Shown here piece after piece: positions 3,650 to 64,000 of a stretch of 64,000 nucleotides of DNA. Source of the stretch: Daphnia pulex (Eukaryota; Arthropoda; Branchiopoda; Diplostraca; Daphniidae); assembly GCF_021134715.1 (NCBI RefSeq), contig NC_060028.1:9647482-9711481 (forward strand), in the 5' to 3' direction. The translations under genes and the position numbers were made by a program. Every line of letters begins with the position of its first letter. The first letter of the stretch is position 1. The notes under the pieces were generated by a model. The model was given only the letters and a program-made list of their open reading frames with translations. It was not told where the DNA came from and did no database searches.

Positions 3650-6476
<2,827 letters not shown>

Positions 6477-44419: not shown

Positions 44420-44777
44420 AGTTCTACATCATACTTCAAGTTGTTACTTCCTACGTTGGTGTCCATGCTGTGTTGAACTGTTAGGCATATTTTATCGTCG
44501 ATATGTCGTCTCTTGCTACCTGTACCTGCGTTGAGGTAATGCTAAATGTTCAGATTCATTTTATTATTGACTTGTAATTAAATCTGCGCTGCTTCACTTG
44601 ATCCATTGGTGAAACCGTGAAACTAATTAGAGGTTGTTGTCGATAAATTAAAAGTGCATATTTGTGCTCCCTTCCTTTCTGTGGCCCCGTTTCCCTATTT
44701 GCAACAGAGTCTCTGTGATTAGCTGTGACTGTGCAATTTGTGCATGCAAACAACTTAGGATTCAAAACACATGACTA

Positions 44778-45385
44778 GATGTCGGCAGTGTCGCCCTTGT
44801 TGTTGATACTTCGTGAAACGAGGCAAAAAGGGCGAAATAACAAATTGTACATAATTAATAATACTTATATTCCTGTGATTTCATATACCAAATTGAACTT
44901 CGTAACTTATGTAGGTTTAATCTTGACATTTTTCCTTATTTTTATACTGTACCAACTTATTTCTTCAAATTCTAGATGCCTAATGTCAGTCATTCCAACA
45001 GGTTGACGTAGTGCTCAGTCAATTTCCATCCATTAGGCCCATCATGCTGTCAAAAGCCTAAAACTCATGGTTGAAGTGCAAATGTGCCGAGAGTATTTCC
45101 CCATTACTGCTACCAGACCATTACAATTCAGATTTTCTTATAACATAGGTGTCCTTGGCTCCTTGCGCATGAACCATAGGATCTTTTCTGAATCTCACAA
45201 TTTTGGTGGCTTACCCTGCAACAGCATGTTTGTTGTTATGGCTGTTTTACTTCTGTTTAGAAGGCAACCCAGCTAAGAGATAGGTAGAGTTTTATTTCTC
45301 ATAGGTAATTTTGTGTAAATATATAAATAACGTAGAGAATTTTCATGAAGAGACGAAGAGTGTGAAGTGAACCTGCCATGTGTGT
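44778..45385 (+). repeat. outer ~600-bp terminal repeat, left arm
   Basis: Starts near ATGTCGGCAGTGTCGCC and shares long blocks (GTGAAACGAGGC, CAAATTGAACTTCGTA, GATGCCTAATGTCAGTCATT, CCATCATGCTGTCAAAAGCC) with 51425-52032 in inverted orientation, at roughly 80-85% identity by eye. It therefore bounds the arm like a long TIR. Confidence 0.75.
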
Positions 45386-45822
45386 GTACATGTACCAGAT
45401 CTGTACATGAAAACATATGTACATGAGTACAGATATGTAAAAGGCAAAATTTTTATTTCTTTAATAATAATCCATAGCTAATAATCATTTTATTCTTTCC
45501 AACAGATCTGCAAACACGAGGTTATGAATTTCGTTTTGGGGTCAATGGAGTTGGCGGTGGTTGCCGTTACTGGCCTTTTGCGACGTCTTGATATCAGTTT
45601 GAAATAATAGTTCTGAACTCTGGGGAATCCTCACTCATACTCGAGGTAACTTTGCAGTTAACAGGAGTTTAAGATTCGTTACGTTTTTTGCATGTCTTTG
45701 TTGTGTTTTTTTGCATGCAAGTCAACCTGCAGACAGGTCGGCCAGTTTGTTTCAGTATGTTTCTGGATGTGCTTCACGCTTGAAGGTCAAGGGAAAGACA
45801 TAACGTAAAACTGGCATGCGGT

Positions 45823-46152
45823 GGTGTAGAGGTTGGGTGAGAATGACACGTGTTTCAACATTATCAAGTAGGTACAATAGCCGCAAGGTTAAGCTATTTG
45901 ATATTCATTTTGATATTTTGGTTTTTGTAGACCCATCCCCAGCAACGTCTACCTAAAGAAGGAAAGGCCAGTTTGCATTTCAATCGAAGGTCATGGAGAT
46001 CATTACGAAAAGGTGTCATACAGTGGAGAAGAGGTTGGGTGAGAACGGTACGTTTTGCATCATTATCAAGAAGGTAAAAAAAGCCGCAAGGCTTGAGAGG
46101 AGGGGTGAGAAAAAATTGTATAAAAGGCGGGAGAAAGTCGATAGGTATCAGT
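45823..46152 (+). promoter_or_regulatory. promoter of Tyr-rich copy 1: duplicated upstream module, TATA, Inr
   Basis: Two copies of a module (GAGGTTGGGTGAGAA, an ACGTGTT- or ACGTTTT-type core, a CATTATCAAG block, GCCGCAAGG) lie at 45833-45893 and 46024-46094. TATAAAAG at 46119-46126 and an arthropod initiator TCAGT at 46148-46152 follow; the A at 46150 lies 31 bp from the first T of TATA, ideal spacing. Mirror at about 58125-58454. Confidence 0.7.
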
Positions 46153-46213
46153 CGAGTGAGTGTCTCCGACACGGCAACAGCTGCAGTATTCGTCGTAATA
46201 TCAGTTCGCAATT

Positions 46214-46497
46214 ATGGGTAAATATTCATTTTTAATTTCGAGTCGTAAATCTATTCTACCTTGTTTTGAGTTGTTGATACGACTAGTTATCTTAGAAAAA
46301 TAATGTCCAATTGTTTATTTTATTGCATAGTTAATTATGGCGTTGTGTTGCTGTTGGGTGTTGTATCGTTGATGTTGACCACGAGAGAAAATCTTTTAAA
46401 AGGAAAGAAAAAGGGCAACGGAAGTCAATCGAGTAAGCATCTCCGAACGGCAGCAGCTGCATTCTTCGTCGTATTATCAGGTCACAATCACGGGTGA
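46214..46497 (+). CDS. chimeric small secreted protein from a truncated Tyr-rich gene (copy 1)
   Basis: Exon 1 ends ATGG at 46217 before GTAAAT; exon 2 starts at 46331. The joined frame gives the family signal peptide MVNYGVVLLLGVVSLM, then instead of Tyr-rich repeats it runs LTTRENLLKGKKKGNGSQSS and on to LSGHNHG, stop at 46497. The downstream part is the promoter/first-exon sequence of another copy read as protein, so a deletion fused the signal-peptide exon to it. The TATA promoter is intact. About 56 aa. Whether it is expressed is unknown; it may be a pseudogene. Confidence 0.5.
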
Positions 46498-47218
46498 ATA
46501 TTCTGTATTTCTACGTGGAATTTTGTATCAATTTCTATTTTTTCTGTTTGATAATCTGTCCGTTAGTGTTGAATATTTAATGTAGTCTGGTTAACTATTC
46601 CTTGAGACTATACTTTAGAACTATACTTTAGAATGTCTTAAATTTAAGTATGTTTTCTTAATCCATTTAAAGTTTCAACAAGTTCCAACTGATGTAGTGT
46701 TTAATAATTATTTTTCCATTACCGTAGATGATTTGGTTGTGGCCAGACCCGACCAAATTTTTTGCTTTCCACTCTCTCCTAATTATCTCTCTAAATGGGT
46801 AAAATATGTAGAATGAATAAGTTTAGAATATTTATTTTAAAGCTGTTGGGAATATAATTCTTTGAAAAAATCAAGTGTGTTAAAATAATGTGTTTGATTA
46901 CGAAGCTGCTTATAACACTTGTTACTTTTGTTCCTCTTAGGTTCCTGATTTGTTTGATGATCGTGTGTCATCAAATTTGACTAGAGTTCTGAATTCTTAG
47001 TGATGGACTGTTTGCAGAATAAAATAGAATTTGACTGATGATACATATATTTGGCCAGGATTCAGACGCTGGCCAGGATGGCGATGTTGGTGGATGAGAC
47101 GCGTCGCAACCATCTCTAATTCACCAAAGTCAATCTGCAGACGGGTTGGTGAACGCTTGAAGGTCACGGGATTAGGTAAAACTGTCGTCTGTCGTGCAGT
47201 GGTGTGCAGTGCAGTGCA

Positions 47219-47345
47219 GAGGTTGGGTGAGAACCATGCAGTGGTGTAGAGGTTGGGTGAGAAAGTCTGTGCAGTGGTGTAGAGGTTGGGTGAGAACCGT
47301 GCAGTGGTGTAGAGGTTGGGTGAGAACGACACGTGTTGCTTCATT
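47219..47345 (+). repeat. tandem promoter-module repeat (4 units)
   Basis: GTGGTGTAGAGGTTGGGTGAGAA recurs with a period of about 29-31 bp (47220-47325), ending in the ACACGTGTTGC block. This is an amplified form of the upstream module in front of copy 2. Mirror at about 56932-57058. Confidence 0.8.
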
Positions 47346-48072
47346 TCCAAGCAGGTACAATTGCCGCAAGGCTTAGGAGGTGAGTCAGGGTAAGAAAAAG
47401 TAGTATAAAAGGAGAGAGAAAAGTCAGTTTGAGATCAGTCGAGTGAACATCTCCGACACGGCAACTACTGCTGCGCACCATTGGTAACCAACCTCCTTCT
47501 TCATCGTTTAACCAGTTCGCAATCACGGGTAAATATTCTGTTTTTTTTTTTTTTACATTGAGTTTTGTATCAAATCACTTTTGACTACTTTTTTATCTGC
47601 CAGTTGTTGGTGAATATTAATTTTTAAATTTATTAATTCTCTAGTTAACTATGGCGTCGTGCTGCTGTTGGGTGTTGTATCGTTGATGGCTGGGTCGACC
47701 ACTGGTGTACCGATGTCTCCTGGGTCCGCAATGCTGCTGCCTCCCACACAACAACAACATACGCAACCACCGGATACTACACCACCAAGGCTCCAGAGTC
47801 CTACCACAACTTAGGATGCCCCGAGCTACTACACCGAAGCTCTGAAGTATAACTCTACCCCGAGCCACACCAACAAAGATCCGGCGTACAACACCAAGGC
47901 TCCCAAGTACTACACCACTAAGGCACAGGAATACTACACGATTACGTATGCTGCCCCTGCCTACTACACCGAGGCCCCTAATTACTACAACACTGAAGCA
48001 CCCAAGTACTACACTACAACCTACACTGCCCTAAGCTACTACATTAACGCCCCGAAGTATTACTCTGCGTAA
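47345..48072 (+). pseudogene. Tyr-rich secreted protein gene copy 2, decayed
   Basis: TATAAAAG at 47404-47411 and an initiator TCAGT at 47435 are intact. The expected ATGG at the end of exon 1 reads ACGG (47524-47528), so the start codon is lost. Exon 2 from 47645 still encodes NYGVVLLLGVVSLMAGSTTG. Parts of later frames show the family repeats (YYTEALKYNSTPS, NTKAPKYYTTKAQEYYT, APAYYTEAPNYYNTEAPKYY, INAPKYYSA then TAA 48070) with at least one frame change and one TAG between. The parent was a secreted Tyr/Thr/Pro-rich structural protein. Confidence 0.72.
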
Positions 48073-48162
48073 AAGGAGTCGTTAAAAAAGAAGATGTAAA
48101 AAGGAGTGAGAAAAGGTGGTAGAACATTTGATAATTTAGTTACAATTGAAAAATCCATCAAT

Positions 48163-49260
48163 GACAAGTGTTGCATCATTTTCAAGCAGGTGCAATTGCC
48201 GCAAGGCTCGAGTTGAAAGGTGAATCAGGAGAAGGAAAAATCCGATTGAACGAGAGAAAGGGCGATGGAAAACAGTCGAATGAGCATAACAACTGGATTG
48301 TTCATCGTTAAACCAGTTCATAATTATGGGTAATTACTCTGTTTTTTACATTGCGTTTTGTATCAATCATACTTTTTTCTATTTGTTAAGATGCCATTGA
48401 ATATTAATGTTTAAACTTCTTTATTTTTTAGTTAACTGTTGCTTCGTTGTGTTGTTGATCGTTGTATGGCTGGGTCGACCACTGTGGTCGGTGTACCGAT
48501 GTCTCCTGGTTATAGCTGATAGCCTGATACCAAACCGCAATGCCGCCGCCTAACTACACAACAACTTTAACGACCAGTTACAACACCGAGGCCTAGACCG
48601 AGACCCACAAATACTACACCACCAAGTCACCGAAGTAGGATACGATAACTTGCGCTTCGCCGAGCTAATACACCGATCCCCCGAATTATTACTTTGCCTC
48701 CAGTTGCACCACCAAGTCAGCGAAGTACTACACGACTACGTATCCTGCTTATCTTACTACACCGAGGCTCCAGCTACTACACCGAGGCTCCAGCTACTAC
48801 ACCGAGGCTCCAGCTACTACACCGAGGCTCCAGCTACTACACCGAGGCTCCAGCTACTACACCGAGGCTCCAGCTACTACACCGAGGCTCCAGCTACTAC
48901 ACCGAGGCTCCAGCTACTACACCGAGGCTCCAGCTACTACACCGAGGCTCCAGCTACTACACCGAGGCTCCAGCTACTACACCGAGGCTCCAGCTACTAC
49001 ACCGAGGCTCCAGCTACTACACCGAGGCTCCAGCTACACAACCACGACTGATGCGGTCAAGGTTTACGTAGCCCCAACTTTCTACTCAACTACTGCCCCT
49101 TCGTATTACGTTGAACCGAAATACTGCACTGAAGCTTCAGGTTACTACACCGAAAATCTGAAGTATTACTCTGCTCATAGTAACTACACCACTAAGGCAC
49201 CTGAATAGTACACTAAGACATACGCTTCTCCAGATTTCTAGAAGGATTCTAAATGCCAGA
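48163..49260 (+). pseudogene. Tyr-rich secreted protein gene copy 3, decayed, with minisatellite
   Basis: The upstream module (AGTGTTGCATCATTTTCAAG, CAATTGCCGCAAGGCTCGAG) is kept but no TATA is visible. Exon 1 ATGG at 48325-48328 joins exon 2 at 48432: MVNCCFVVLLIVVWLGRPLW, out of frame after a 7-nt loss relative to copy 2 and stopping within about 41 codons. Farther on are a 20-bp minisatellite and family-like remnants (APKYYT-type words, VEPKYCTEASGYYTENLKYY). Confidence 0.7.
48761..49040 (+). repeat. 20-bp minisatellite, 14 units (ACCGAGGCTCCAGCTACTAC)
   Basis: Fourteen head-to-tail 20-bp units, identical except for the last few bases of the final unit. The ancestral coding unit would be 21 nt (SYYTEAP). 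The lost base makes each successive unit shift frame, so YYTEAP, TTPRLQ and LLHRGSS alternate; all three frames stay open. Confidence 0.95.
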
Positions 49261-49743
49261 GCTGATATGATGGAAAATCTGTACACATACATATACACAA
49301 TATCATAATAGTTACTAGTCACTAGGAATTGTTCTTTGATGAGAAAATAAAGTTTTTAATCTGAGTAATTATTTTGTTCGACTTTTACTACCTAAGAGCA
49401 TTATGATAATTCGACTTTTTCTGATTTTTGTGGGAGTTTTCCTATTTCGCATGTTGGAGATAACTTTTGCTTTAGTCGATCTGCATTCAGACATTCTAGT
49501 GTTTGGACGAACTTCATTAGGAGTTGTGGATAGTGTTTGCTTCCTCATGGAATTTTATTTAAAGAGTCTTAAAATGGTTAATCACCTAGCTATAACATGT
49601 GTAAAATTTCAAAGTTGAAAGAATGAAAGTACTATGACACAAACAAAAACTTTAAAAGGAATTGCTTTATTGTCCCACCTCCACCCACAATTCCACCACA
49701 TTTTACAGTCACATATATTCATACATACACACACTTAAGTTAA

Positions 49744-50011
49744 CCCATTGGCTGCCACGCCATACAACCCGTAGGTTGCTCTCTACTAATCTACGCGCCA
49801 CGTCTGAAGGATCCATGACCAAGTGGGACTTGCCATTGCTGACAAGTCCGTGCTGAAAAGGGGGAACTATGGTGCATTGCCTGAAACAGGCGCCTTGCGG
49901 CAAATTTTGGGCTTGGCGACTCTCCGACCCCGCGGCTTGTAAACCACGAGACCGAACAGCGCGGCCCATGCTAAGGAGCTAGGGGAAAACAAAGGCGTGG
50001 CAGACAACGGG
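49744..50011 (+). mobile_element. piggyBac-type MITE with TTAA target duplications
   Basis: 268 bp bounded by CCCATTGGCTGCCACGCC and, inverted, GGCGTGGCAGACAACGGG (16/18 match), and flanked on both sides by TTAA (49740-49743 and 50012-50015). TTAA plus terminal CCC/GGG is the piggyBac hallmark. No transposase; the interior has no long frame. Confidence 0.82.
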
Positions 50012-50291
50012 TTAACTAACACTCACACAAACATATTACCAACAACAAATGATGATCCGCGCTGACATTTTGGAGATACCGGCGACGTTTTGGTATCCAT
50101 CTTCTCGACGTTTCCTCTGCATTACCTGAATAAAGAGATAACAATTCTTATTAAGTGGCATGCCAATAAAAGTTACATAATAGTCACATAATACTTATAA
50201 GTTCATTATTCTTGTTTTTTTGCTCAAAACTTTAAAGGTGCGCTTTAAATTGCTTAAAATCTACCTAACAATATTGAGAACTGTTCACATA

Positions 50292-50677
50292 ACAGAGCTC
50301 ACTTGCTAGTCTTTAAGAAAAAATTCCGGAAGTAGACCGGAAGTAACCACAGCGCCTCAACCATTGAGCTGTCGTCAAATTAAACCACATATTCGTGATC
50401 TCCATGAAATTTGGGGTCGATCAGATGTGATTTAAACGAAATCCAAAATTTGACCAAAATAGAGAATTTTCCTGAACTATAGTTCAGGAAAATTTTCGAA
50501 ACCGGAAGTACGAATACGTAAAAAATATAACATGAACTTTACCACAAATTCGACGAGGATCACGAATATGTGGTTCTTTTGCTCCTCGAATGAATATTTA
50601 CTGAACTACTGACTGAAATGAGCAAACCGGAAGTAGAAAAAAAAATCAATTATCGAAAATTTTACAAGTGAGCTTTG
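50292..50677. mobile_element. foldback MITE (self-complementary, ~386 bp)
   Basis: Ends ACAGAGCTCACTTG (50292) and CAAGTGAGCTTTGT (50677) are inverted repeats. Internal paired blocks include ACCACATATTCGTGATC against GATCACGAATATGTGGT, and a perfect 30-bp palindrome sits at 50465-50494. Several CCGGAAGT blocks occur on both halves. No coding capacity. Confidence 0.75.
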
Positions 50678-50921
50678 TTGCTGGAATAGTAATCGTCAGT
50701 TATCACTAAATATTTCAACAAAATAACTGCCAATAAATGTTTAAATAGATGTGCAAAGTAACTGAAACTGACTGTTTTGACAGCTGCAAATTATCAAAAA
50801 GCCATCTAGCGCTAGAAAAAAGAAACGTCCAAGTAAAACTTCGTTGGCGCGTAAGAAGGGACTGATTTTGGAAACTATTCTAAAGACAGAGTCTAACGCA
50901 ACTAGACTATTAGTAGATAAC

Positions 50922-51206
50922 CTACGAAAATAAGTCAATTGTTGGGTACCTGGGCATAATCCCGTGGTGAGTGACTGCAGGTGTGTAACAGCGGACGGAA
51001 ACGATCACTGAAGAGGTCCAGAAACTCGCCAAGTCGCCAGTGAAGTAAAACAAATTGTGTTTAGAAGCAGTGAAGCTAGATGAGCGTGCGTCGCGAAGAT
51101 AAGGATGGAGAAGAACGTTGATGGAAGTCCCTCTTCCGTCATGGACAAAGGTCAGCATTGGCACAGAATCTCCGTGCCAGGACTGGCCAGGACCACACGA
51201 TTCCAT
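50922..51206 (-). CDS. unrecognised 94-codon frame within the arm
   Basis: Starts MESCGPGQSWHGDSVPMLTF and continues VHDGRGTSINVLLHPYLRDA. The composition is protein-like (mixed, not repeat-derived) and both arms keep it open, but the arms are too similar for that to be evidence of selection. No family recognised. Confidence 0.25.
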   Translation of the reverse strand: MESCGPGQSWHGDSVPMLTFVHDGRGTSINVLLHPYLRDARSSSFTASKHNLFYFTGDLASFWTSSVIVSVRCYTPAVTHHGIMPRYPTIDLFS

Positions 51207-51424
51207 AAAGAAACTGCGTGCTCTCTAAAATAAAATGTTTTACATTGATGAAATATTAAAAAGAATAAAGCATATTGATCTTTACCTTTAGAAGCACACT
51301 GCAATTTTCATGAAGAAAAAACCGTAAAAATGGAATTCACAGCAACCAACAGCATTACTCCACATGTTGAGATAAATTTCCTGATGCTCAAGTTAGTGTC
51401 ATGAAGTATTGCAGTAGCATGGTG

Positions 51425-52032
51425 ATAGGTGGTTCACTTCACAGTCTTCATGTCACTGAAACTCTAAGTGGAAATGGGACAAGGAAATTCTCTATGTTAT
51501 TTACAAATTTACACAAATTTACCTATGAGAAATAAAACTGTTCCTATCTCTGAGCTGGGTTGCCTTCTAAACAGAAGTAAAAACAGCCATAACAACAAAC
51601 ATGCTGTTGCAGGGTACACCACCAAAATTGCGAGATTCAGAAAAGATCCTATGGAACAAGAATACCTATGTTACATGAAAATCTGAATTGTAATGGACTG
51701 GTAGTAGTAATGGGAAAATACCTTAACTCGGCAGATTTTTATTCCACTATATGTGTGCTTAAAACATGATTTTTAGGCTTTTGACAGCATGATGGGTCTA
51801 TTGGATGGAAAGTGTCTGGGCGCTAAGTCAACTTGTTGGAATGACTGACAGTAGGCATCTAATATTTGAAGAAATAAAATGATACAGTATAAAAATAAGG
51901 AAACTAGGTAAAGAGATAAACCTACATATAATACGAAGTTCAATTTGCTAATTGAAATTACAGGAATATAAGAATAAATTAGCAACCAATTATTTCGCCT
52001 ATTGTGCCTCGTTTCAAGATGTTACAACAACA
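51425..52032 (-). repeat. inner ~600-bp terminal repeat, left arm
   Basis: Inverted relative to 44778-45385 and nearly identical to its mirror at 52358-52970. Its outermost ~19 bases are absent compared with the right-arm partner. Confidence 0.75.
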
Positions 52033-52357
52033 TTATATCCATCATTGAGTGGACTTGTTGTCTTGTTGACCTGTTGCCTTGTTGGAATGACTGACAGTAT
52101 GCATCTAGAATTAGGAGAAATTAGTTGGAACAGTATCAAAATAAGGAAACTAGGTCAAGAAATACCTACACAATATACGAAGTTCAATTTGGTATTTGAA
52201 ATCACAAGAATATAAGTTTAAATTAGAAACAATTTGTTTCGCCTATTTCGCCTCGTTTCACAAAGCGAAAACAACAATCGCGACACTAGCAACATCTAGT
52301 TACCTACTTAGGAATTAGGATTCAAAACTTATTACCAGATGTCGCTAGTGTCGCCAG
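52033..52357. repeat. asymmetric palindrome centre with third terminal-repeat fragment
   Basis: The 325-bp spacer is not self-complementary overall. It contains, at about 52079-52318, a further copy (minus orientation) of the terminal-repeat family, and the outermost bases (about 52339-52357) of the right arm's inner terminal repeat, which are missing from the left arm. Confidence 0.75.
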
Positions 52358-52970
52358 TGTTGTTGTAACATCTTGAAACGAGGCACAATAGGCGAAATAA
52401 TTGGTTGCTAATTTATTCTTATATTCCTGTAATTTCAATTAGCAAATTGAACTTCGTATTATATGTAGGTTTATCTCTTTACCTAGTTTCCTTATTTTTA
52501 TACTGTATCATTTTATTTCTTCAAATATTAGAATATTAGATGCCTACTGTCAGTCATTCCAACAAGTTGACTTAGCGCCCAGACACTTTCCATCCAATAG
52601 ACCCATCATGCTGTCAAAAGCCTAAAAATCATGTTTTAAGCACACATATAGTGGAATAAAAATCTGCCGAGTTAAGGTATTTTCCCATTACTACTACCAG
52701 TCCATTACAATTCAGATTTTCATGTAACATAGGTATTCTTGTTCCATAGGATCTTTTCTGAATCTCGCAATTTTGGTGGTGTACCCTGCAACAGCATGTT
52801 TGTTGTTATGGCTGTTTTTACTTCTGTTTAGAAGGCAACCCAGCTCAGAGATAGGAACAGTTTTATTTCTCATAGGTAAATTTGTGTAAATTTGTAAATA
52901 ACATAGAGAATTTCCTTGTCCCATTTCCACTTAGAGTTTCAGTGACATGAAGACTGTGAAGTGAACCACC
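52339..52970 (+). repeat. inner ~600-bp terminal repeat, right arm
   Basis: Complete version, beginning AGATGTCGCTAGTGTCGCC; it pairs with 51425-52032. Confidence 0.72.
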
Positions 52971-53191
52971 TATCACCATGCTACTGCAATACTTCATGAC
53001 ACTAACTTGAGCATCAGGAAATTTATCTCAACATGTGGAGTAATGCTGTTGGTTGCTGTGAATTCCATTTTTACGGTTTTTTCTTCATGAAAATTGCAGT
53101 GTGCTTCTAAAGGTAAAGATCAATATGCTTTATTCTTTTTAATATTTCATCAATGTAAAACATTTTATTTTAGAGAGCACGCAGTTTCTTT

Positions 53192-53476
53192 ATGGAATCG
53201 TGTGGTCCTGGCCAGTCCTGGCACGGAGATTCTGTGCCAATGCTGACCTTTGTCCATGACGGAAGAGGGACTTCCATCAACGTTCTTCTCCATCCTTATC
53301 TTCGCGACGCACGCTCATCTAGCTTCACTGCTTCTAAACACAATTTGTTTTACTTCACTGGCGACTTGGCGAGTTTCTGGACCTCTTCAGTGATCGTTTC
53401 CGTCCGCTGTTACACACCTGCAGTCACTCACCACGGGATTATGCCCAGGTACCCAACAATTGACTTATTTTCGTAG
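53192..53476 (+). CDS. mirror of the 94-codon frame
   Basis: Identical frame in the right arm; see 50922-51206. Confidence 0.25.
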   Translation: MESCGPGQSWHGDSVPMLTFVHDGRGTSINVLLHPYLRDARSSSFTASKHNLFYFTGDLASFWTSSVIVSVRCYTPAVTHHGIMPRYPTIDLFS

Positions 53477-53720
53477 GTTATCTACTAATAGTCTAGTTGC
53501 GTTAGACTCTGTCTTTAGAATAGTTTCCAAAATCAGTCCCTTCTTACGCGCCAACGAAGTTTTACTTGGACGTTTCTTTTTTCTAGCGCTAGATGGCTTT
53601 TTGATAATTTGCAGCTGTCAAAACAGTCAGTTTCAGTTACTTTGCACATCTATTTAAACATTTATTGGCAGTTATTTTGTTGAAATATTTAGTGATAACT
53701 GACGATTACTATTCCAGCAA

Positions 53721-54106
53721 CAAAGCTCACTTGTAAAATTTTCAATAATTGATTTTTTTTTCTACTTCCGGTTTGCTCATTTCAGTCAGTAGTTCAGTAA
53801 ATATTCATTCGAGGAGCAAAAGAACCACATATTCGTGATCCTCGTCGAATTTGTGGTAAAGTTCATGTTATATTTTTTACGTATTCGTACTTCCGGTTTC
53901 GAAAATTTTCCTGAACTATAGTTCAGGAAAATTCTCTATTTTGGTCAAATTTTGGATTTCGTTTAAATCACATCTGATCGACCCCAAATTTCATGGAGAT
54001 CACGAATATGTGGTTTAATTTGACGACAGCTCAATGGTTGAGGCGCTGTGGTTACTTCCGGTCTACTTCCGGAATTTTTTCTTAAAGACTAGCAAGTGAG
54101 CTCTGT
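53721..54106. mobile_element. mirror copy of foldback MITE
   Basis: Same element in the right arm. Confidence 0.75.
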
Positions 54107-54386
54107 TATGTGAACAGTTCTCAATATTGTTAGGTAGATTTTAAGCAATTTAAAGCGCACCTTTAAAGTTTTGAGCAAAAAAACAAGAATAATGAACTTA
54201 TAAGTATTATGTGACTATTATGTAACTTTTATTGGCATGCCACTTAATAAGAATTGTTATCTCTTTATTCAGGTAATGCAGAGGAAACGTCGAGAAGATG
54301 GATACCAAAACGTCGCCGGTATCTCCAAAATGTCAGCGCGGATCATCATTTGTTGTTGGTAATATGTTTGTGTGAGTGTTAGTTAA

Positions 54387-54654
54387 CCCGTTGTCTGCCA
54401 CGCCTTTGTTTTCCCCTAGCTCCTTAGCATGGGCCGCGCTGTTCGGTCTCGTGGTTTACAAGCCGCGGGGTCGGAGAGTCGCCAAGCCCAAAATTTGCCG
54501 CAAGGCGCCTGTTTCAGGCAATGCACCATAGTTCCCCCTTTTCAGCACGGACTTGTCAGCAATGGCAAGTCCCACTTGGTCATGGATCCTTCAGACGTGG
54601 CGCGTAGATTAGTAGAGAGCAACCTACGGGTTGTATGGCGTGGCAGCCAATGGG
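54387..54654 (-). mobile_element. mirror copy of piggyBac-type MITE
   Basis: Identical element and TTAA flanks in the right arm, so the insertion predates the palindrome duplication. Confidence 0.82.
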
Positions 54655-55137
54655 TTAACTTAAGTGTGTGTATGTATGAATATATGTGACTGTAAAATGT
54701 GGTGGAATTGTGGGTGGAGGTGGGACAATAAAGCAATTCCTTTTAAAGTTTTTGTTTGTGTCATAGTACTTTCATTCTTTCAACTTTGAAATTTTACACA
54801 TGTTATAGCTAGGTGATTAACCATTTTAAGACTCTTTAAATAAAATTCCATGAGGAAGCAAACACTATCCACAACTCCTAATGAAGTTCGTCCAAACACT
54901 AGAATGTCTGAATGCAGATCGACTAAAGCAAAAGTTATCTCCAACATGCGAAATAGGAAAACTCCCACAAAAATCAGAAAAAGTCGAATTATCATAATGC
55001 TCTTAGGTAGTAAAAGTCGAACAAAATAATTACTCAGATTAAAAACTTTATTTTCTCATCAAAGAACAATTCCTAGTGACTAGTAACTATTATGATATTG
55101 TGTATATGTATGTGTACAGATTTTCCATCATATCAGC

Positions 55138-56115
55138 TCTGGCATTTAGAATCCTTCTAGAAATCTGGAGAAGCGTATGTCTTAGTGTACTATTCAGGTG
55201 CCTTAGTGGTGTAGTTACTATGAGCAGAGTAATACTTCAGATTTTCGGTGTAGTAACCTGAAGCTTCAGTGCAGTATTTCGGTTCAACGTAATACGAAGG
55301 GGCAGTAGTTGAGTAGAAAGTTGGGGCTACGTAAACCTTGACCGCATCAGTCGTGGTTGTGTAGCTGGAGCCTCGGTGTAGTAGCTGGAGCCTCGGTGTA
55401 GTAGCTGGAGCCTCGGTGTAGTAGCTGGAGCCTCGGTGTAGTAGCTGGAGTCTCGGTGTAGTAGCTGGAGTCTCGGTGTAGTAGCTGGAGCCTCGGTGTA
55501 GTAGCTGGAGCCTCGGTGTAGTAAGATAAGCAGGATACGTAGTCGTGTAGTACTTCGCTGACTTGGTGGTGCAACTGGAGGCAAAGTAATAATTCGGGGG
55601 ATCGGTGTATTAGCTCGGCGAAGCGCAAGTTATCGTATCCTACTTCGGTGACTTGGTGGTGTAGTATTTGTGGGTCTCGGTCTAGGCCTCGGTGTTGTAA
55701 CTGGTCGTTAAAGTTGTTGTGTAGTTAGGCGGCGGCATTGCGGTTTGGTATCAGGCTATCAGCTATAACCAGGAGACATCGGTACACCGACCACAGTGGT
55801 CGACCCAGCCATACAACGATCAACAACACAACGAAGCAACAGTTAACTAAAAAATAAAGAAGTTTAAACATTAATATTCAATGGCATCTTAACAAATAGA
55901 AAAAAGTATGATTGATACAAAACGCAATGTAAAAAACAGAGTAATTACCCATAATTATGAACTGGTTTAACGATGAACAATCCAGTTGTTATGCTCATTC
56001 GACTGTTTTCCATCGCCCTTTCTCTCGTTCAATCGGATTTTTCCTTCTCCTGATTCACCTTTCAACTCGAGCCTTGCGGCAATTGCACCTGCTTGAAAAT
56101 GATGCAACACTTGTC
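55138..56115 (-). pseudogene. mirror of Tyr-rich copy 3
   Basis: Same structure in the right arm but with 8 rather than 14 minisatellite units. Confidence 0.7.
55361..55520 (-). repeat. 20-bp minisatellite, 8 units (right arm)
   Basis: Same unit; two adjacent units carry a C-to-T variant (TCTCGG on the plus strand) not present in the left arm. The six-unit difference accounts for the 120-bp shift between arms. Confidence 0.95.
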
Positions 56116-56205
56116 ATTGATGGATTTTTCAATTGTAACTAAATTATCAAATGTTCTACCACCTTTTCTCACTCCTTTTTACATCTTCTTTTTTAACGAC
56201 TCCTT

Positions 56206-56932
56206 TTACGCAGAGTAATCCTTCGGGGCGTTAATGTAGTAGCTTAGGGCAGTGTAGGTTGTAGTGTAGTACTTGGGTGCTTCAGTGTTGTAGTAATTAG
56301 GGGCCTCGGTGTAGTAGGCAGGGGCAGCATACGTAATCGTGTAGTATTCCTGTGCCTTAGTGGTGTAGTACTTGGGAGCCTTGGTGTTGTACGCCGGATC
56401 TTTGTTGGTGTGGCTCGGGGTAGAGTTATACTTCAGAGCTTCGGTGTAGTAGCTCGGGGCATCCTAAGTTGTGGTAGGACTCTGGAGCCTTGGTGGTGTA
56501 GTATCCGGTGGTTGCGTATGTTGTTGTTGTGTGGGAGGCAGCAGCATTGCGGACCCAGGAGACATCGGTACACCAGTGGTCGACCCAGCCATCAACGATA
56601 CAACACCCAACAGCAGCACGACGCCATAGTTAACTAGAGAATTAATAAATTTAAAAATTAATATTCACCAACAACTGGCAGATAAAAAAGTAGTCAAAAG
56701 TGATTTGATACAAAACTCAATGTAAAAAAAAAAAAACAGAATATTTACCCGTGATTGCGAACTGGTTAAACGATGAAGAAGGAGGTTGGTTACCAATGGT
56801 GCGCAGCAGTAGTTGCCGTGTCGGAGATGTTCACTCGACTGATCTCAAACTGACTTTTCTCTCTCCTTTTATACTACTTTTTCTTACCCTGACTCACCTC
56901 CTAAGCCTTGCGGCAATTGTACCTGCTTGGAA
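56206..56932 (-). pseudogene. mirror of Tyr-rich copy 2
   Basis: Same decayed gene in the right arm, with at least one substitution in the last codons (GAAGGATTACTCTGCG versus GAAGTATTACTCTGCG on the coding strand). The start codon is likewise ACG. Confidence 0.72.
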
Positions 56933-57779
56933 ATGAAGCAACACGTGTCGTTCTCACCCAACCTCTACACCACTGCACGGTTCTCACCCAACCTCTACAC
57001 CACTGCACAGACTTTCTCACCCAACCTCTACACCACTGCATGGTTCTCACCCAACCTCTGCACTGCACTGCACACCACTGCACGACAGACGACAGTTTTA
57101 CCTAATCCCGTGACCTTCAAGCGTTCACCAACCCGTCTGCAGATTGACTTTGGTGAATTAGAGATGGTTGCGACGCGTCTCATCCACCAACATCGCCATC
57201 CTGGCCAGCGTCTGAATCCTGGCCAAATATATGTATCATCAGTCAAATTCTATTTTATTCTGCAAACAGTCCATCACTAAGAATTCAGAACTCTAGTCAA
57301 ATTTGATGACACACGATCATCAAACAAATCAGGAACCTAAGAGGAACAAAAGTAACAAGTGTTATAAGCAGCTTCGTAATCAAACACATTATTTTAACAC
57401 ACTTGATTTTTTCAAAGAATTATATTCCCAACAGCTTTAAAATAAATATTCTAAACTTATTCATTCTACATATTTTACCCATTTAGAGAGATAATTAGGA
57501 GAGAGTGGAAAGCAAAAAATTTGGTCGGGTCTGGCCACAACCAAATCATCTACGGTAATGGAAAAATAATTATTAAACACTACATCAGTTGGAACTTGTT
57601 GAAACTTTAAATGGATTAAGAAAACATACTTAAATTTAAGACATTCTAAAGTATAGTTCTAAAGTATAGTCTCAAGGAATAGTTAACCAGACTACATTAA
57701 ATATTCAACACTAACGGACAGATTATCAAACAGAAAAAATAGAAATTGATACAAAATTCCACGTAGAAATACAGAATAT

Positions 57780-58063
57780 TCACCCGTGATTGTGACCTGA
57801 TAATACGACGAAGAATGCAGCTGCTGCCGTTCGGAGATGCTTACTCGATTGACTTCCGTTGCCCTTTTTCTTTCCTTTTAAAAGATTTTCTCTCGTGGTC
57901 AACATCAACGATACAACACCCAACAGCAACACAACGCCATAATTAACTATGCAATAAAATAAACAATTGGACATTATTTTTCTAAGATAACTAGTCGTAT
58001 CAACAACTCAAAACAAGGTAGAATAGATTTACGACTCGAAATTAAAAATGAATATTTACCCAT
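57780..58063 (-). CDS. mirror of chimeric small secreted protein (copy 1')
   Basis: Identical exon pair in the right arm (57780-57946 and 58060-58063). The upstream TATA region differs slightly in an A/T-run next to the TATA box (near 58158-58168) between the arms. Confidence 0.5.
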
Positions 58064-58891
58064 AATTGCGAACTGATATTACGACGAATACTGCAGCTGT
58101 TGCCGTGTCGGAGACACTCACTCGACTGATACCTATCGACTTTCTCCCGCCTTTTATAAAAATTTTTCTCACCCCTCCTCTCAAGCCTTGCGGCTTTTTT
58201 TACCTTCTTGATAATGATGCAAAACGTACCGTTCTCACCCAACCTCTTCTCCACTGTATGACACCTTTTCGTAATGATCTCCATGACCTTCGATTGAAAT
58301 GCAAACTGGCCTTTCCTTCTTTAGGTAGACGTTGCTGGGGATGGGTCTACAAAAACCAAAATATCAAAATGAATATCAAATAGCTTAACCTTGCGGCTAT
58401 TGTACCTACTTGATAATGTTGAAACACGTGTCATTCTCACCCAACCTCTACACCACCGCATGCCAGTTTTACGTTATGTCTTTCCCTTGACCTTCAAGCG
58501 TGAAGCACATCCAGAAACATACTGAAACAAACTGGCCGACCTGTCTGCAGGTTGACTTGCATGCAAAAAAACACAACAAAGACATGCAAAAAACGTAACG
58601 AATCTTAAACTCCTGTTAACTGCAAAGTTACCTCGAGTATGAGTGAGGATTCCCCAGAGTTCAGAACTATTATTTCAAACTGATATCAAGACGTCGCAAA
58701 AGGCCAGTAACGGCAACCACCGCCAACTCCATTGACCCCAAAACGAAATTCATAACCTCGTGTTTGCAGATCTGTTGGAAAGAATAAAATGATTATTAGC
58801 TATGGATTATTATTAAAGAAATAAAAATTTTGCCTTTTACATATCTGTACTCATGTACATATGTTTTCATGTACAGATCTGGTACATGTAC

Positions 58892-59499
58892 ACACACATG
58901 GCAGGTTCACTTCACACTCTTCGTCTCTTCATGAAAATTCTCTACGTTATTTATATATTTACACAAAATTACCTATGAGAAATAAAACTCTACCTATCTC
59001 TTAGCTGGGTTGCCTTCTAAACAGAAGTAAAACAGCCATAACAACAAACATGCTGTTGCAGGGTAAGCCACCAAAATTGTGAGATTCAGAAAAGATCCTA
59101 TGGTTCATGCGCAAGGAGCCAAGGACACCTATGTTATAAGAAAATCTGAATTGTAATGGTCTGGTAGCAGTAATGGGGAAATACTCTCGGCACATTTGCA
59201 CTTCAACCATGAGTTTTAGGCTTTTGACAGCATGATGGGCCTAATGGATGGAAATTGACTGAGCACTACGTCAACCTGTTGGAATGACTGACATTAGGCA
59301 TCTAGAATTCGAAGAAATAAGTTGGTACAGTATAAAAATAAGGAAAAATGTCAAGATTAAACCTACCTAAGTTACGAAGTTCAATTTGGTATATGAAATC
59401 ACAGGAATATAAGTATTATTAATTATGTACAATTTGTTATTTCGCCCTTTTTGCCTCGTTTCACGAAGTATCAACAACAAGGGCGACACTGCCGACATC
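58892..59499 (-). repeat. outer ~600-bp terminal repeat, right arm
   Basis: Mirror image of 44778-45385, essentially identical. Confidence 0.75.
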
Positions 59500-59856
59500 T
59501 AGTCATGTGTTTTGAATCCTAAGTTGTTTGCATGCACAAATTGCACAGTCACAGCTAATCACAGAGACTCTGTTGCAAATAGGGAAACGGGGCCACAGAA
59601 AGGAAGGGAGCACAAATATGCACTTTTAATTTATCGACAACAACCTCTAATTAGTTTCACGGTTTCACCAATGGATCAAGTGAAGCAGCGCAGATTTAAT
59701 TACAAGTCAATAATAAAATGAATCTGAACATTTAGCATTACCTCAACGCAGGTACAGGTAGCAAGAGACGACATATCGACGATAAAATATGCCTAACAGT
59801 TCAACACAGCATGGACACCAACGTAGGAAGTAACAACTTGAAGTATGATGTAGAAC

Positions 59857-60098
59857 TATTCCCAACAGCTTTAAAATAAATATTCTAAACTTATTCATTC
59901 TACATATTTTACCCATTTAGAGAGATAATTAGGAGAGAGTGGAAAGCAAAAAATTTGGTCGGGTCTGGCCACAACCAAATCATCTACGATAAGTGCACGA
60001 TGGTAATGGAAAAATAATTATTAAACACTACATCAGTTGGAACTTGTTGAAACTTTAAATGGATTAAGAAAACATACTTAAATTTAAGACATTCTAAA
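59857..60098 (-). repeat. third copy of an arm-internal segment at the palindrome edge
   Basis: Repeats 57423-57650 in the same orientation (and 46627-46854 inverted), with a 14-bp insertion (ATAAGTGCACGATG). It abuts the end of the right arm with a 4-bp overlap (TATT), suggestive of a rearrangement junction. Confidence 0.88.
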
Positions 60099-60426: not shown

Positions 60427-61128
60427 CATGAACAATTATGGGTGGAAGCTAACGAATTAGCAAAAGAATGGGCAAATACGTTAACAAATCTACCGATTCC
60501 GGCATTCCAAGGCCAACTGAACGCCATGAAACACTTGATCGAGTGTGCGAAAAATAACACCACAATCAACTTCAGTAAAATAAAATAGAAACAGCTTTCT
60601 TACAAACCGGTTTATTTAACTTTTTCGTTTTCCAATTACAGACGAAAAGATCATACCAACAGAAGAGAAAGAGGCAACCAACCTTGTGAATGAGCCATTT
60701 ATGCCAATAGCCATACCAAATTCCACTGCATGCGAAACACACGAACAACTAGCTTTAAACATAGAAGGTAACCTGTGGCAAAAGTGTATAACTTAACATT
60801 AATAGAATTGAAGAAATCTCATTTTCCAACTACAGACGATATCACGAAAATGGCGAAAGAACTAAATTCCAATCAGCATAATATAGATGAACAAAAGCTA
60901 ATGGAAACAGAGGTTCAACAAATCACAGAAGTAGTGAATGAACTCGTAGTCGTACCTGACGTCAACAAAAAAAAGAGTGAAAGATTGAAGAAACTAAAAC
61001 AATTGAAACTTGTAAACATAAAAAGACGACAGGGTAAACCAAGAACAACTAAAAAGCTTGATAAATACAAGTACAGTCCCAAACCATTCCTGAAAAAAAA
61101 AAATCACACGAGAAAAATAGAAGTATAA
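60400..61128 (+). CDS. multi-exon coding region upstream of the PHD exon, unrecognised
   Basis: Open stretches read EHEQLWVEANELAKEWANTL then TNLPIPAFQGQLNAMKHLIE (about 60426-60585). After an acceptor at about 60643 comes DEKIIPTEEKEATNLVNEPF, ending NIEG at GTAACC (about 60769); after an acceptor at 60836 comes DDITKMAKELNSNQHNIDEQ, a Lys-rich basic stretch (NKKKSERLKKLKQLKLVNIK) and RKIEV at the stop, 61128. Two acceptors share the context TTCCAATTACAG/ACGA or TTCCAACTACAG/ACGA, suggesting exon duplication. Basic, nuclear-looking. How it connects to the PHD exon was not resolved. Confidence 0.45.
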
Positions 61129-61185
61129 ACTACATGATAATTTGAAAATTCTATACATTTTATTCTAAGAATTACTATTCTTCTA

Positions 61186-61617
61186 GTGTTTCTTTCATGG
61201 ATAACAGGAAAAGAGAAAGCTAACTACCTGTTACTCAACCAACAAAAAGCTGATCGAAAACATCTCACCCATGCCACCCAAATGAGTACAGCAGTTATCG
61301 AAGATGATGTACAAAGCGTATTACAATCATTTGAAAACCTATTCACTGAAGAAGGATGGAAACAACTAATGACAAACAGTAAAAATAATCTTATCACTAA
61401 TTTAAAAAGATACTATTCAAATTTATCACTAGTTCATGAACGAAATCAAACAACACTGGAATACATCTGTCCAACTTGCCGCAAACCTGAAGGCACCGAA
61501 AAAGAACCTTGTATTTTCTGTGAGTCATGCCAATTGTGGCATCACTACAGCTGTCAAGCCATTAAAAAAAAACAATCAAGCAATTATACCTGTACAATCT
61601 GTCGAAAGTCGAAATAA
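61186..61617 (+). CDS. PHD-finger protein exon
   Basis: After a TTCTAG acceptor the frame reads FLSWITGKEKANYLLLNQQK, helical QSVLQSFENLFTEEGWKQLM, and ends in a Cys4-His-Cys3 zinc finger: YICPTCRKPEG, CIFCESCQLWHHYSCQAI, YTCTICRKSK, stop 61617. Spacing fits a PHD finger (CxxC, CxxC, HxxC, CxxC). PHD fingers read histone H3 tails, but fingers of this kind also occur in transposable-element proteins, and the inverted repeats around this locus make that possible. Confidence 0.6.
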   Translation: MFLSWITGKEKANYLLLNQQKADRKHLTHATQMSTAVIEDDVQSVLQSFENLFTEEGWKQLMTNSKNNLITNLKRYYSNLSLVHERNQTTLEYICPTCRKPEGTEKEPCIFCESCQLWHHYSCQAIKKKQSSNYTCTICRKSK

Positions 61618-62113: not shown

Positions 62114-64000
62114 TTAGACAGATTGATGGATTTCAAAATTAAGCGCTTTGATGGGGTCGTATTCGTGCTTAGCATTACTCATTAAATCTATCATATCCTC
62201 CTCGTCGTCTTCAACATAGCCGACCCATCGGCGTAGCCATGTCCGTTTGGGGAAATATCGTAGGAATGCGTAAATTAAGTGAAGTGCGCATACAATGGTA
62301 ACACAAAGAGGAGCAATGAATCGATCGTCTAGCAAGTTATTAGGCAAGTTGGATCCAAGCTGAACAATCCTGTAGATCAGCAAAGCCAGGGGAGAGAGAA
62401 TGGACAAACTTAGGACAATGTTTACTGGCTCTTGGTGTATATTGGGATTGGTACTGCTAACTGCATAGATATTCATCAAGGCGCTTCTGTCGCTCAAAAA
62501 AGTTAGAATCGAACTAATCCAAGACACAATACCTATAACTGGGAAATTGATTATTATAAGGCAGGTCAGGACGAAATTGCTAGTTAGCTCGGCATAGCGG
62601 GAAGCAAAATCAAACTCAAGTCTGTAAGATTTTCTCCAGGCAATGTGCTCCCCTTGTGAACGGAAGGTGAACACTTTCTTGAGGTAATTAAAGAGGAACT
62701 GGAAGCGCGTCTGATCCATCAATATCCTACTGGCTGTGTTAACAATAATACTGCAAGCAATGAAACTGCCGTGTTCTGGAAAGAAGAGGCACTCTAAGCG
62801 AAAATGTTGGCTGTCGAATAACTGGCCAGAAAACAGTAAAGGTAGTGGCTGTACCGCCATCATTCGAACCAAATAGAGTATACTCGACAGGTAGAAAATT
62901 GACCGCAATCTTCCTATTTCAATACTTGCCAGGCAAAAGTGGTGTCGGTAGAGGTCTAGATTAGTCACCAAGTCTGTCAGTTCGGTTGTGATGAAAGTTA
63001 CAATGCTTGGTAGAATGAAAATTTTCCAAGTTAATGAAACAGGGTTTGATCCTTCCCCTACCAAGTAGAGAGAGCGGACAATAAAGCCAGGTGTGGCCAT
63101 CACAGTAATATAAGTTGAATAGGCAATCAGTAACATCAGCAAGACAGATAATTTTTTCCAAATAGAGTGTTGTCCTTCCAATTGCTGCCAATTAATGTGC
63201 GAACCAGGTGGAGCATATCGCACGGTCCAATGACGTAGTCGAAATTCATCTTCTTTTTGCGGCATAATAGAGTAACGAAACCATTTCGGTTGATGATTAA
63301 TGATAGCCATTTTCGTCGCTTTGGCTTGGGCAGGATCGTCAAATCGGATGAAAGCTGTGCCGATAAATTCCAAGTTTTTGATCATAGCGTCTTTTTCTGC
63401 TAAGAGAATATTTTCTTTCCTGTTATAATATGCCGTAGCGTCTTCTTCGTTGTTGTTTTTATCCCAAAATCGCCGTTGAATCAATTCCGGTCCGGAGGGG
63501 GAGATTAGTAACTGCCGCTTGATGTCTCGCACAGTATTCAGTTGATCTAAAACGGGCCACAGTTTTGTAAGATCATTGGCAAAAACGATTCCTTCACGGG
63601 TTATCCCCTGGGCATTAAACTTCTTCTTCAGGTATTCGTAGAGCGAGTCAATCGTTACATCCCGTCCAAGTCCAGTGATCTTCAACCATTGTCGATTACA
63701 AACTCTGGCCGTGTTTGGTACATTCGGACTGACCAATGTTCTGATACGCCGATCGTTTCCGTGTCTTGTCATCACCCAAGCCAATGTTGCCAGTATAGCA
63801 AAGGAGAGTAAGGAATGGACCCCGCTTAGCCCGACATTGTTAAGTGATGTATAACTTAACAGGTTTTCAAGTCCTAGTTTGCTTCCAAAACTATGAATAA
63901 CTATCAAAGCCACGCCGAAGACCATCATCCAAGTATAGACTTGAATAAGACGATAGTGGAACCAGAGATATGTTGCGCCGTCTTTTCCAATTGCATTTTC
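62114..64000 (-). CDS. TMEM63: TMEM63/OSCA (CSC1-like) mechanosensitive cation channel, 5' end beyond window
   Basis: Continuous frame from the window edge (ENAIGKDGATYLWFHYRLIQ at 64000) to the stop at 62114, at least 628 aa. TM segments: MMVFGVALIVIHSFG, HSLLSFAILATLAWVM. The cytosolic RNA-recognition-like domain includes RQWLKITGLGRDVTIDSLYE and FIGTAFIRFDDPAQAKATKM, then YAPPGSHINWQQL. The pore region follows: LSVLLMLLIAYSTYITVMAT, FILPSIVTFITTELTDLV, RLEFDFASRYAELTSNFVLT and CLIIINFPVIGIVSW. The C-terminus is FPKRTWLRRWVGYVEDDEED, then HEYDPIKALNFEIHQSV. Order and motifs match TMEM63, an osmo/mechanosensitive channel. The last ~1.8 kb of coding is uninterrupted, whereas vertebrate TMEM63 genes are intron-rich. 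Confidence 0.9.
   Translation of the reverse strand, partial: ENAIGKDGATYLWFHYRLIQVYTWMMVFGVALIVIHSFGSKLGLENLLSYTSLNNVGLSGVHSLLSFAILATLAWVMTRHGNDRRIRTLVSPNVPNTARVCNRQWLKITGLGRDVTIDSLYEYLKKKFNAQGITREGIVFANDLTKLWPVLDQLNTVRDIKRQLLISPSGPELIQRRFWDKNNNEEDATAYYNRKENILLAEKDAMIKNLEFIGTAFIRFDDPAQAKATKMAIINHQPKWFRYSIMPQKEDEFRLRHWTVRYAPPGSHINWQQLEGQHSIWKKLSVLLMLLIAYSTYITVMATPGFIVRSLYLVGEGSNPVSLTWKIFILPSIVTFITTELTDLVTNLDLYRHHFCLASIEIGRLRSIFYLSSILYLVRMMAVQPLPLLFSGQLFDSQHFRLECLFFPEHGSFIACSIIVNTASRILMDQTRFQFLFNYLKKVFTFRSQGEHIAWRKSYRLEFDFASRYAELTSNFVLTCLIIINFPVIGIVSWISSILTFLSDRSALMNIYAVSSTNPNIHQEPVNIVLSLSILSPLALLIYRIVQLGSNLPNNLLDDRFIAPLCVTIVCALHLIYAFLRYFPKRTWLRRWVGYVEDDEEDMIDLMSNAKHEYDPIKALNFEIHQSV

Follow-up and report, generated by a model that had tools for sequence, protein, structure and literature searches.

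Probable recurrent gene conversion between the arms of a dispersed palindrome family in Daphnia pulex

Introduction

Gene conversion between palindrome arms is described for the human and ape Y chromosomes (PMC3723533; Rozen et al. 2003, as cited in PMC7953838 and PMC5490193). The Daphnia pulex palindromes considered here resemble these structures in their arms, which are more than 99% identical, in the apparent concerted evolution of those arms, in the genes they contain and in tandem repeats whose length differs between arms. However, the Daphnia contigs are not known as sex chromosomes, and the arms measure 4–9 kb, whereas those of the Y palindromes extend over tens to hundreds of kilobases. 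Also unlike the Y palindromes, the Daphnia structures have one core in common across many loci and, adjoining the centre, a divergent zone that is unconverted.

Other systems share parts of this organization. In Caenorhabditis, inverted repeats accompany divergent or convergent paralogous gene pairs; as in Daphnia, the inverted pairs and their intergenic inverted repeats are alike within a genome, even where copies or species differ in sequence, and are duplicated as an entity (PMC1803023). The Caenorhabditis test was made between species (PMC1803023), whereas ours compares paralogous palindromes of one genome, and in Daphnia divergence is highest beside the centre and the genes in the window are degenerate. 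Palindromic gene blocks combined with clonal reproduction are likewise found in the parthenogenetic rotifer Adineta vaga and the springtail Folsomia candida (PMC7953838, PMC5490193). For F. candida, the authors describe widely ranging Ks values and found concerted evolution unsupported (PMC5490193). Foldback-primed inverted duplications in yeast are also centred on an imperfect inverted repeat and are followed by secondary rearrangements (PMC10622511); they arise anew in the laboratory following a break, whereas the Daphnia cores are old and common to paralogous loci, and flanks are kept on either side.

Gene conversion in Daphnia has been reported for ribosomal DNA spacers (PMC3036644) and Dscam exons (PMC3236188), and the 23 genomes of an earlier palindrome screen did not include D. 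pulex (PMC7953838). Among the literature matches listed, from which subscription journals were mostly missing, no paper addressed Daphnia palindromes or the tyrosine-rich repeat gene family. In D. pulex, clonal and sexual reproduction alternate, and sex is set mainly by the environment. The window analysed here is the whole stretch of 64,000 nucleotides from positions 9,647,482 to 9,711,481 of contig NC_060028.1.

Results

The near-perfect 15.4-kb palindrome of the original prediction is present in the window (Table 1). Arm-to-arm alignment revealed 8 substitutions in 7,492 aligned columns, and a second tool recovered the same arms as three ungapped pieces; when the window was simulated five times with a first-order Markov model, the best-scoring inverted match reached 62 bp at 74%. 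Neither the remainder of the window (44,400 + 4,140 bp) nor five single-arm loci, which with the window flanks make up a control of 148,540 bases, contained an inverted repeat of 300 bp or longer with identity of 85% or higher. Three indels also separate the arms: 1 bp at 47541, 8 bp at 51857 and 120 bp corresponding to six units of a 20-bp minisatellite (14.1 copies on the left, 8.1 on the right). The predicted asymmetries, namely arrays of 14 and 8 units, private unit variants (two were found) and the 8-bp indel, were thereby confirmed.

Table 1. Features of the palindrome and its right edge, in window coordinates
Feature	Position	Strand	Remarks
Left arm	44420..52032	+	7,613 bp; inverted match to 52358-59857
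Outer half of foldback core, outer end of left arm	44755..45342	-	mirror copy 58935-59522
Degenerate tyrosine-rich repeat genes, left arm	46118..49220	+	limits approximate; exon-2 match, repeat-type ORFs
20-bp minisatellite, left	48755..49037	+	14.1 units
1.8-kb conserved block, left copy	49642..51433	+	repeated across genome
Inner core arm, left	51434..52032	+	same type as right inner core arm
Relic of older, different left core arm, adjoining loop	52046..52297	+	similarity to C9_7805, C9_8730
39-bp loop, middle of foldback core	52298..52336	.	between two facing core-tip motifs
Inner core arm, right, tip intact	52337..52964	-	core-tip motif
Right arm	52358..59857	-	7,500 bp; inverted match to 44420-52032
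1.8-kb conserved block, right copy	52965..54756	-	C12:9700446-9702237
Degenerate tyrosine-rich repeat genes, right arm	55178..58159	-	mirror coordinates; exon-2 match on - strand
20-bp minisatellite, right	55361..55523	-	8.1 units; two private unit variants
Third copy of arm segment 46627-46854, right edge	59857..60098	-	keeps 14 bases absent from both arms

The two arms are convergent, because the right-arm genes mirror those of the left arm. The exon-2 match in the window lacks the YYT repeat, and its frame is open for 56 aa only. Across the 16 loci searched, 23 exon-2 matches were identified in nine, the longest open reading being 87 aa at a single-arm locus; an intact gene product was therefore rejected as the reason for upkeep of the palindromes. 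Neither tRNA genes nor Rfam families at the gathering score were detected in the window.

The 325-bp centre was expected to be asymmetric, and it does differ from the arms, but it is not plain unique sequence, since 52078-52566 forms a 77% inverted repeat belonging to an older foldback core. On its left side lies a relic whose identity is 94.5% with the left core arm of C9_7805 (over 52046-52320) and 93.2% with C9_8730 (over 52041-52320); its tip motif ends at 52297. The outer half-core at 44755-45342 comprises one core arm and half a loop, shares about 80% identity with the inner core arms and carries core-tip motifs at 44777 and, in its mirror copy, at 59483. The right edge had been taken for unique sequence and proved to be a third copy of an arm segment, identical at all 228 shared bases and 14 bases longer. 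The corresponding 14-bp deletion is common to both arms and could be older than the palindrome itself.

A search of the 133,188,837-base genome placed this locus in a dispersed family. The 1.8-kb block occurs in at least 40 copies that are 83–100% identical, which fits the earlier suggestion of an amplified locus. Among 40 scored copies, 16 form eight close pairs, all eight arranged head-to-head around the core, with 1.2–1.8 kb between the blocks. Five block pairs (C10:2459k, 2544k, 2679k and 3060k; C11:3299k) were placed from coordinates alone. Long palindromes had been considered rare, yet those of this layout (degenerate tyrosine-rich repeat genes, 1.8-kb block and foldback core) are not rare in this genome. 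An origin on a sex chromosome or by breakage-fusion is likewise not needed, as the scored copies are spread over eight contigs (C3, C5, C6, C7, C9, C10, C11 and C12), a distribution that, for the family as a whole, argues against confinement to a sex-limited chromosome. Counted by coordinates alone, the family has 26 loci. None of the five single-arm loci fetched has a second arm, and arms are therefore also gained or lost. The foldback-core search, in which 40 of 246 candidates were scored, yielded six distinct loci outside the window; all six are flanked on both sides by the block, and a free small foldback-core element was rejected. The core tip had no match in the viral contigs scanned.

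Arm divergence was profiled in ten two-sided palindromes, the window and nine others. A sharp step was directly observed in seven of the nine, located 0.28–1.17 kb from the tip, with divergence falling from 11–16% near the centre (4.8% in one) to 0–0.42% outside, the outer comparison covering only 499 aligned bases in C9_8482 and 393 in C7_10215. The steps had lnLR values of 32.6–234.7, and none of the 30 shuffles made for each exceeded 7.6. Judged by sequence divergence, the two sides of the family cores are evidently old, mostly 11–16% apart. Over its 1,404 aligned bases, C7_10495 lacked this step and had a weak one in the reverse direction, and C7_9930 is 3.8% diverged in its outer zone.

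Paralogous palindromes allowed the history of cores and arms to be compared. P1 and P2 are collinear over the whole palindrome, both arms included. Their left outer ends differ, the left arm of P1 stopping where P2 continues. In trees of the core arms, like sides of P1 and P2 cluster together (99.5/100 and 100/100). Over 5,704 columns of the arms, we directly observed 65 sites that group by palindrome, 3 that group by side and are confined to the inner end, and none that are crossed. The cores of C9_7805 and C9_8730 also group by side (100/100 and 97.8/100). The left inner block of C9_7805 forms a separate clade (100/100), and both C9_8730 blocks belong to the other type (100/100); therefore, an older second type has apparently been overwritten in C9_8730. 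Shared divergent cores, set against the grouping of the arms, indicate that both pairs of palindromes are older than their arm identity implies. For the window palindrome, the relic core and the shared 14-bp deletion point only indirectly to the same conclusion.

Discussion

The window is probably one member of an old, dispersed palindrome family whose arms are homogenized by recurrent arm-to-arm gene conversion. Cores shared by side, together with arms that match within palindromes, appear to be the footprint of this process. Of the two possibilities originally raised, a recent event or gene conversion, this contrast favours conversion acting on old palindromes over a recent event. Each arm contributes its degenerate genes together with a 1.8-kb block, and the foldback core is where the arms meet. 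Pairing of the inverted arms, either within one chromosome or across sister chromatids, would recurrently let one be copied onto the other until the mismatched core halts copying, leaving a sharp boundary with near-identical arms outside it. In the window, the homogenized zone would extend almost to the tip and spare only the approximately 250-bp relic of the older left core. Core mismatch may thus both limit conversion and steady the palindrome. The C7_10495 and C7_9930 profiles and the absence of GC bias count against conversion. Of the 65 fixed differences, 39 could be polarized, with 11 weak-to-strong and 19 strong-to-weak changes; in this small sample, GC-biased conversion is unsupported. 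GC-biased transfer is reported for some palindromes (PMC8981503) and is no requirement.

Alternatively, the palindromes could have arisen by repeated independent inverted duplication, in which a break at the foldback core or close to it is followed by outward copying that ends in a template switch. The 3' end would either fold back on itself or invade the opposite arm, by foldback priming or break-induced replication, and arm likeness would reflect recent copying rather than continuing conversion. The central position of the same core in all eight close pairs agrees with this scheme, as do the yeast duplications primed around imperfect inverted repeats (PMC10622511) and the five single-arm loci. 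Within the window, so do the copied arm segment at the right edge, as expected from template switching, and the out-of-register joint between left arm and relic core at 52032, where 51832-52032 and 52078-52276 are both present. Nevertheless, we consider it unlikely: two distinct events starting at one core would have to be assumed for the collinear P1 and P2, and likewise for C9_7805 and C9_8730, and many arm ages would be expected, whereas only C7_9930 is intermediate among the ten two-sided palindromes.

Scaffolding errors can produce palindromes in assemblies (PMC7953838), and the structure could accordingly be an inverted chimera, or consensus correction could have erased the differences between two somewhat divergent arms. 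This is improbable, given that the window arms differ in minisatellite length and private variants, that the two flanks are unlike and that minisatellite length is also unequal between the arms of P1, P2, C11a, C9_7805 and C9_8730. The earlier argument against a simple artefact is strengthened by old cores and sharp steps that recur at several loci with differing boundaries, which is unexpected for a random chimera. A foldback-type transposable element, in which the whole palindrome is mobile and has very long terminal inverted repeats, would suit palindromic loci on eight contigs with core and block in common but was rejected as highly improbable, since flanks compared by eye showed no target-site duplication at 44420/59857, outer ends vary between loci (the left ends of P1 and P2) and no transposase was seen, none of the 10 scanned arm ORFs (of 23 listed) reaching the Pfam cut-off.

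Recurrent conversion, the reading we prefer, bears on why palindromes persist. Because the window-arm genes are broken, homogenization seems to be a side effect of structure and not a means of maintaining useful genes, a point relevant to the view that palindromes persist to protect genes. Sex chromosomes supply the best-known cases of arm-to-arm conversion, and the study of the parthenogenetic F. candida, which has palindromes, did not find it (PMC5490193). Paralogous palindromes separate the age of a palindrome from that of its last overwriting within one genome, without a second species, and the overwriting boundary can be read at replicate loci. A broader proposal, standing at about an even chance, is that the family is self-renewing: one ancient foldback core, dispersed to numerous sites over eight contigs or more, would serve as a hinge that is steadier because it is mismatched, with conversion repeatedly restoring arm identity as far as a limit imposed by the core. 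If so, these loci would be a natural replicate series for measuring how fast conversion proceeds, where its tracts end and how stable the palindromes are, in an animal with both clonal and sexual phases.

The 11 differences between the window arms (8 substitutions and 3 indels) include four that are comparable with relatives, and in all four the right-arm state is the minority, a sample too small for determining copying direction. At position 50654, the right-arm base is common to four other family copies. The length of the 20-bp minisatellite unit is not divisible by three.

Architecture of the palindrome

The palindrome is a genuine feature of the assembly. As the original prediction held, it is near-perfect: its arms (44420-52032 and 52358-59857) differ by 8 substitutions per 7,492 aligned columns, together with indels of 1, 8 and 120 bp. 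The predicted inequality of minisatellite length was also recovered (14.1 vs 8.1 copies of a 20-bp unit), the 120-bp indel amounting to six units. The top-scoring inverted match in five simulated windows reached only 62 bp at 74% identity. The tyrosine-rich repeat genes, a name coined in this analysis, are convergent between the two arms, and single-strand folding of the central kilobase predicts a single extended hairpin whose tip is irregular.

Features of the window and step in arm divergence (arm-to-arm differences) at related palindromes
Feature or palindrome	Position	Remark	Outside boundary	Inside boundary
Window	G000:C12:9647482-9711481
Half of foldback core	44755-45342 (left arm)	Outermost; one in each arm
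Degenerate tyrosine-rich repeat genes	about 46118-49220	+ strand in left arm
1.8-kb block	49642-51433 (left arm)	Inward of genes
Inner core arm		About 600 bp; innermost in each arm
Loop	52298-52336	39 bp; separates facing inner core arms
Domain-bearing neighbour ORFs	4774-5463, 8878-10299, 11507-12157, 29064-30773, 62117-64000
P1	C10:1842-1860k		0.42%	13.1%
P2	C10:2206-2227k		0.05%	11.2%
C11a	C11:630-640k		0.04%	4.8%
C9_7805			0.03%	15.6%
C9_8730			0.07%	14.9%
C9_8482		Outer zone covers 499 aligned bases only	0%	13.5%
C7_10215		Outer zone covers 393 aligned bases only	0%	12.4%
C7_9930			3.8%	12.9%

A dispersed family with old cores

Sequence comparison across the genome (133,188,837 bases, 13 contigs) indicates that the window palindrome is one of a family rather than a lone event, and that the arms of this family undergo concerted evolution around old cores. 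At least 40 copies of the block (744 candidates, of which 40 were scored) are spread over contigs C3, C5, C6, C7, C9, C10, C11 and C12. Eight pairs less than 20 kb apart account for sixteen of these 40 copies, and all eight are head-to-head with an inter-block distance of 1.2-1.8 kb. Among the longer matches to the window centre, two-sided cores were found at 19 of 40 loci (40 of 246 candidates scored), a two-sided core alone being no proof of long arms. By coordinates alone, 26 loci appear palindromic, and the window is the sole locus common to the block-pair and core lists. Ten two-sided palindromes were examined in sequence, namely the window, the eight with divergence values in the table and C7_10495. 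In C7a (C7:10918-10932k), the eleventh, the core is one-sided, and 14 of 3,744 columns differ between the arms. All five further loci examined, at 20 kb each, carry a single arm only.

A one-change-point fit to arm-to-arm differences revealed a sharp step in divergence, with boundaries lying 0.28-1.18 kb off the innermost end of the core. No such step was found at C7_10495 across 1,404 aligned bases, where a weak step runs in the opposite direction. In the window, near-identity continues to the limit of alignable sequence (52032/52358).

In P2, a stretch of about 1.9 kb (block and adjacent sequence) present in the left arm is missing from the right; elsewhere the two arms differ at 4 of 8,593 columns. 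Inverted single block copies also lie about 157 kb apart on C12 (1144684-1146448, +; 1301955-1303700, -), where likeness continues past the core (94.7% over 3.6 kb), and about 97 kb apart on C7 (171608-173407, +; 268695-270494, -). These far-apart pairs may represent palindromes that have opened up, or the ends of inversions.

Repeat genes and minisatellites

The repeat genes of the window arms appear broken, because the exon-2 frame spans only 56 aa without the YYT repeat and the 20-bp unit breaks the reading frame. None of ten arm ORFs scanned (23 ORFs listed) reached the Pfam cut-off. Gene remains occur in all 12 loci with at least 10 kb of sequence, as exon 2 in nine and as repeat ORFs in the remaining three. 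A relative at a single-arm C6 locus resembles Daphnia pulex DAPPUDRAFT_309695 (66% identity, 61% query coverage). Minisatellite length is unequal between arms in the window, P1, P2, C11a, C9_7805 and C9_8730, and in the latter five the arm lengths differ in steps of 24 bp, equal to eight codons. With its 20-bp unit, the array in the window (48755-49037) has lost the frame. Relatives of the repeat genes (P0013, P0015) were also observed in public metagenome data, on contigs as long as 14,815 bases that may contain independent Daphnia assemblies of these loci.

Probable arm-to-arm conversion versus repeated duplication

The paralogous palindromes P1 and P2 are collinear through the centre. Across 5,704 columns of their arms, 65 sites group by palindrome and three by side, each of these three at the inner end; no site is crossed. 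Their core arms cluster by side (left with left, 99.5/100; right with right, 100/100; SH-aLRT/ultrafast bootstrap), as do the cores of C9_7805 and C9_8730 (100/100 and 97.8/100). The left inner block piece of C9_7805 keeps a divergent type that forms a clade of its own (100/100), but C9_8730 has the other type on its two sides, grouped with the C9_7805 right side (100/100); an older second arm was therefore once there and was overwritten.

Repeated, independent inverted duplication from the core would likewise yield similar arms, and at a single locus it could produce an identical picture. At many loci it is less likely, since it would leave arms of many ages, yet C7_9930 alone is intermediate. 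GC bias was not seen (11 vs 19 changes). Beyond the observed family, layout, old cores, step and grouping, we infer gene conversion: inverted arms would pair, within one chromosome or between sisters, each serving as template for the other. Core mismatch would hinder pairing close to the tip, fix the conversion boundary and reduce hairpin formation.

The window retains traces of its history. Adjoining the loop on its left, 52046-52320 is 94.5% identical to the left core arm of C9_7805 and is read here as a relic of an earlier left core; the left-arm core sequence to 52032 is of a different type and matches the right arm. The joint at 52032 is out of register, as homologous 51832-52032 and 52078-52276 are both retained, so a simple replacement tract alone is insufficient as an explanation. 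The right-edge sequence 59857-60098 repeats 46627-46854 a third time, matching it at all 228 common bases and carrying 14 extra. Family-copy alignments extend 5 bases into these 14 (4 of 5 identical) in 10 of 11 cases and 2 bases in the other, two each coming from P1 and P2; thus, a derived deletion is probably present in both window arms. The 14-bp loss fits either arm-to-arm transfer of the deletion or a deletion older than the palindrome.

Relation to known palindromes

The kind of palindrome is already known; a multi-locus family sharing an unconverted core is a new form of it. Palindromes of this kind in Daphnia were not found among the literature matches listed. By its title, a study by Cunningham et al. 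2003 reportedly deals with stabilising rearrangements that arise by a center-break mechanism. Published work describes inverted paralogous gene pairs maintained as structures in nematodes (PMC1803023), inverted duplications arising around inverted repeats in yeast (PMC10622511), F. candida palindromes for which concerted evolution was unsupported (PMC5490193) and a palindrome screen covering 23 of 26 parthenogenetic genomes, D. pulex not included (PMC7953838).

Surroundings and other loci

The neighbours of the palindrome are ordinary, with ORFs bearing Kelch, DUF4209, inositol-pentakisphosphate 2-kinase, BTB and PHM7-type domains. Starting about 330 bp beyond the palindrome, the right flank (60430-61200) has a 98% copy at C12:7123802-7124569. 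A short mitochondrial COX1-like stretch with one stop, above the Pfam cut-off, lies at G000:C11:6254056-6254226 and may represent mitochondrial DNA copied into the nucleus.
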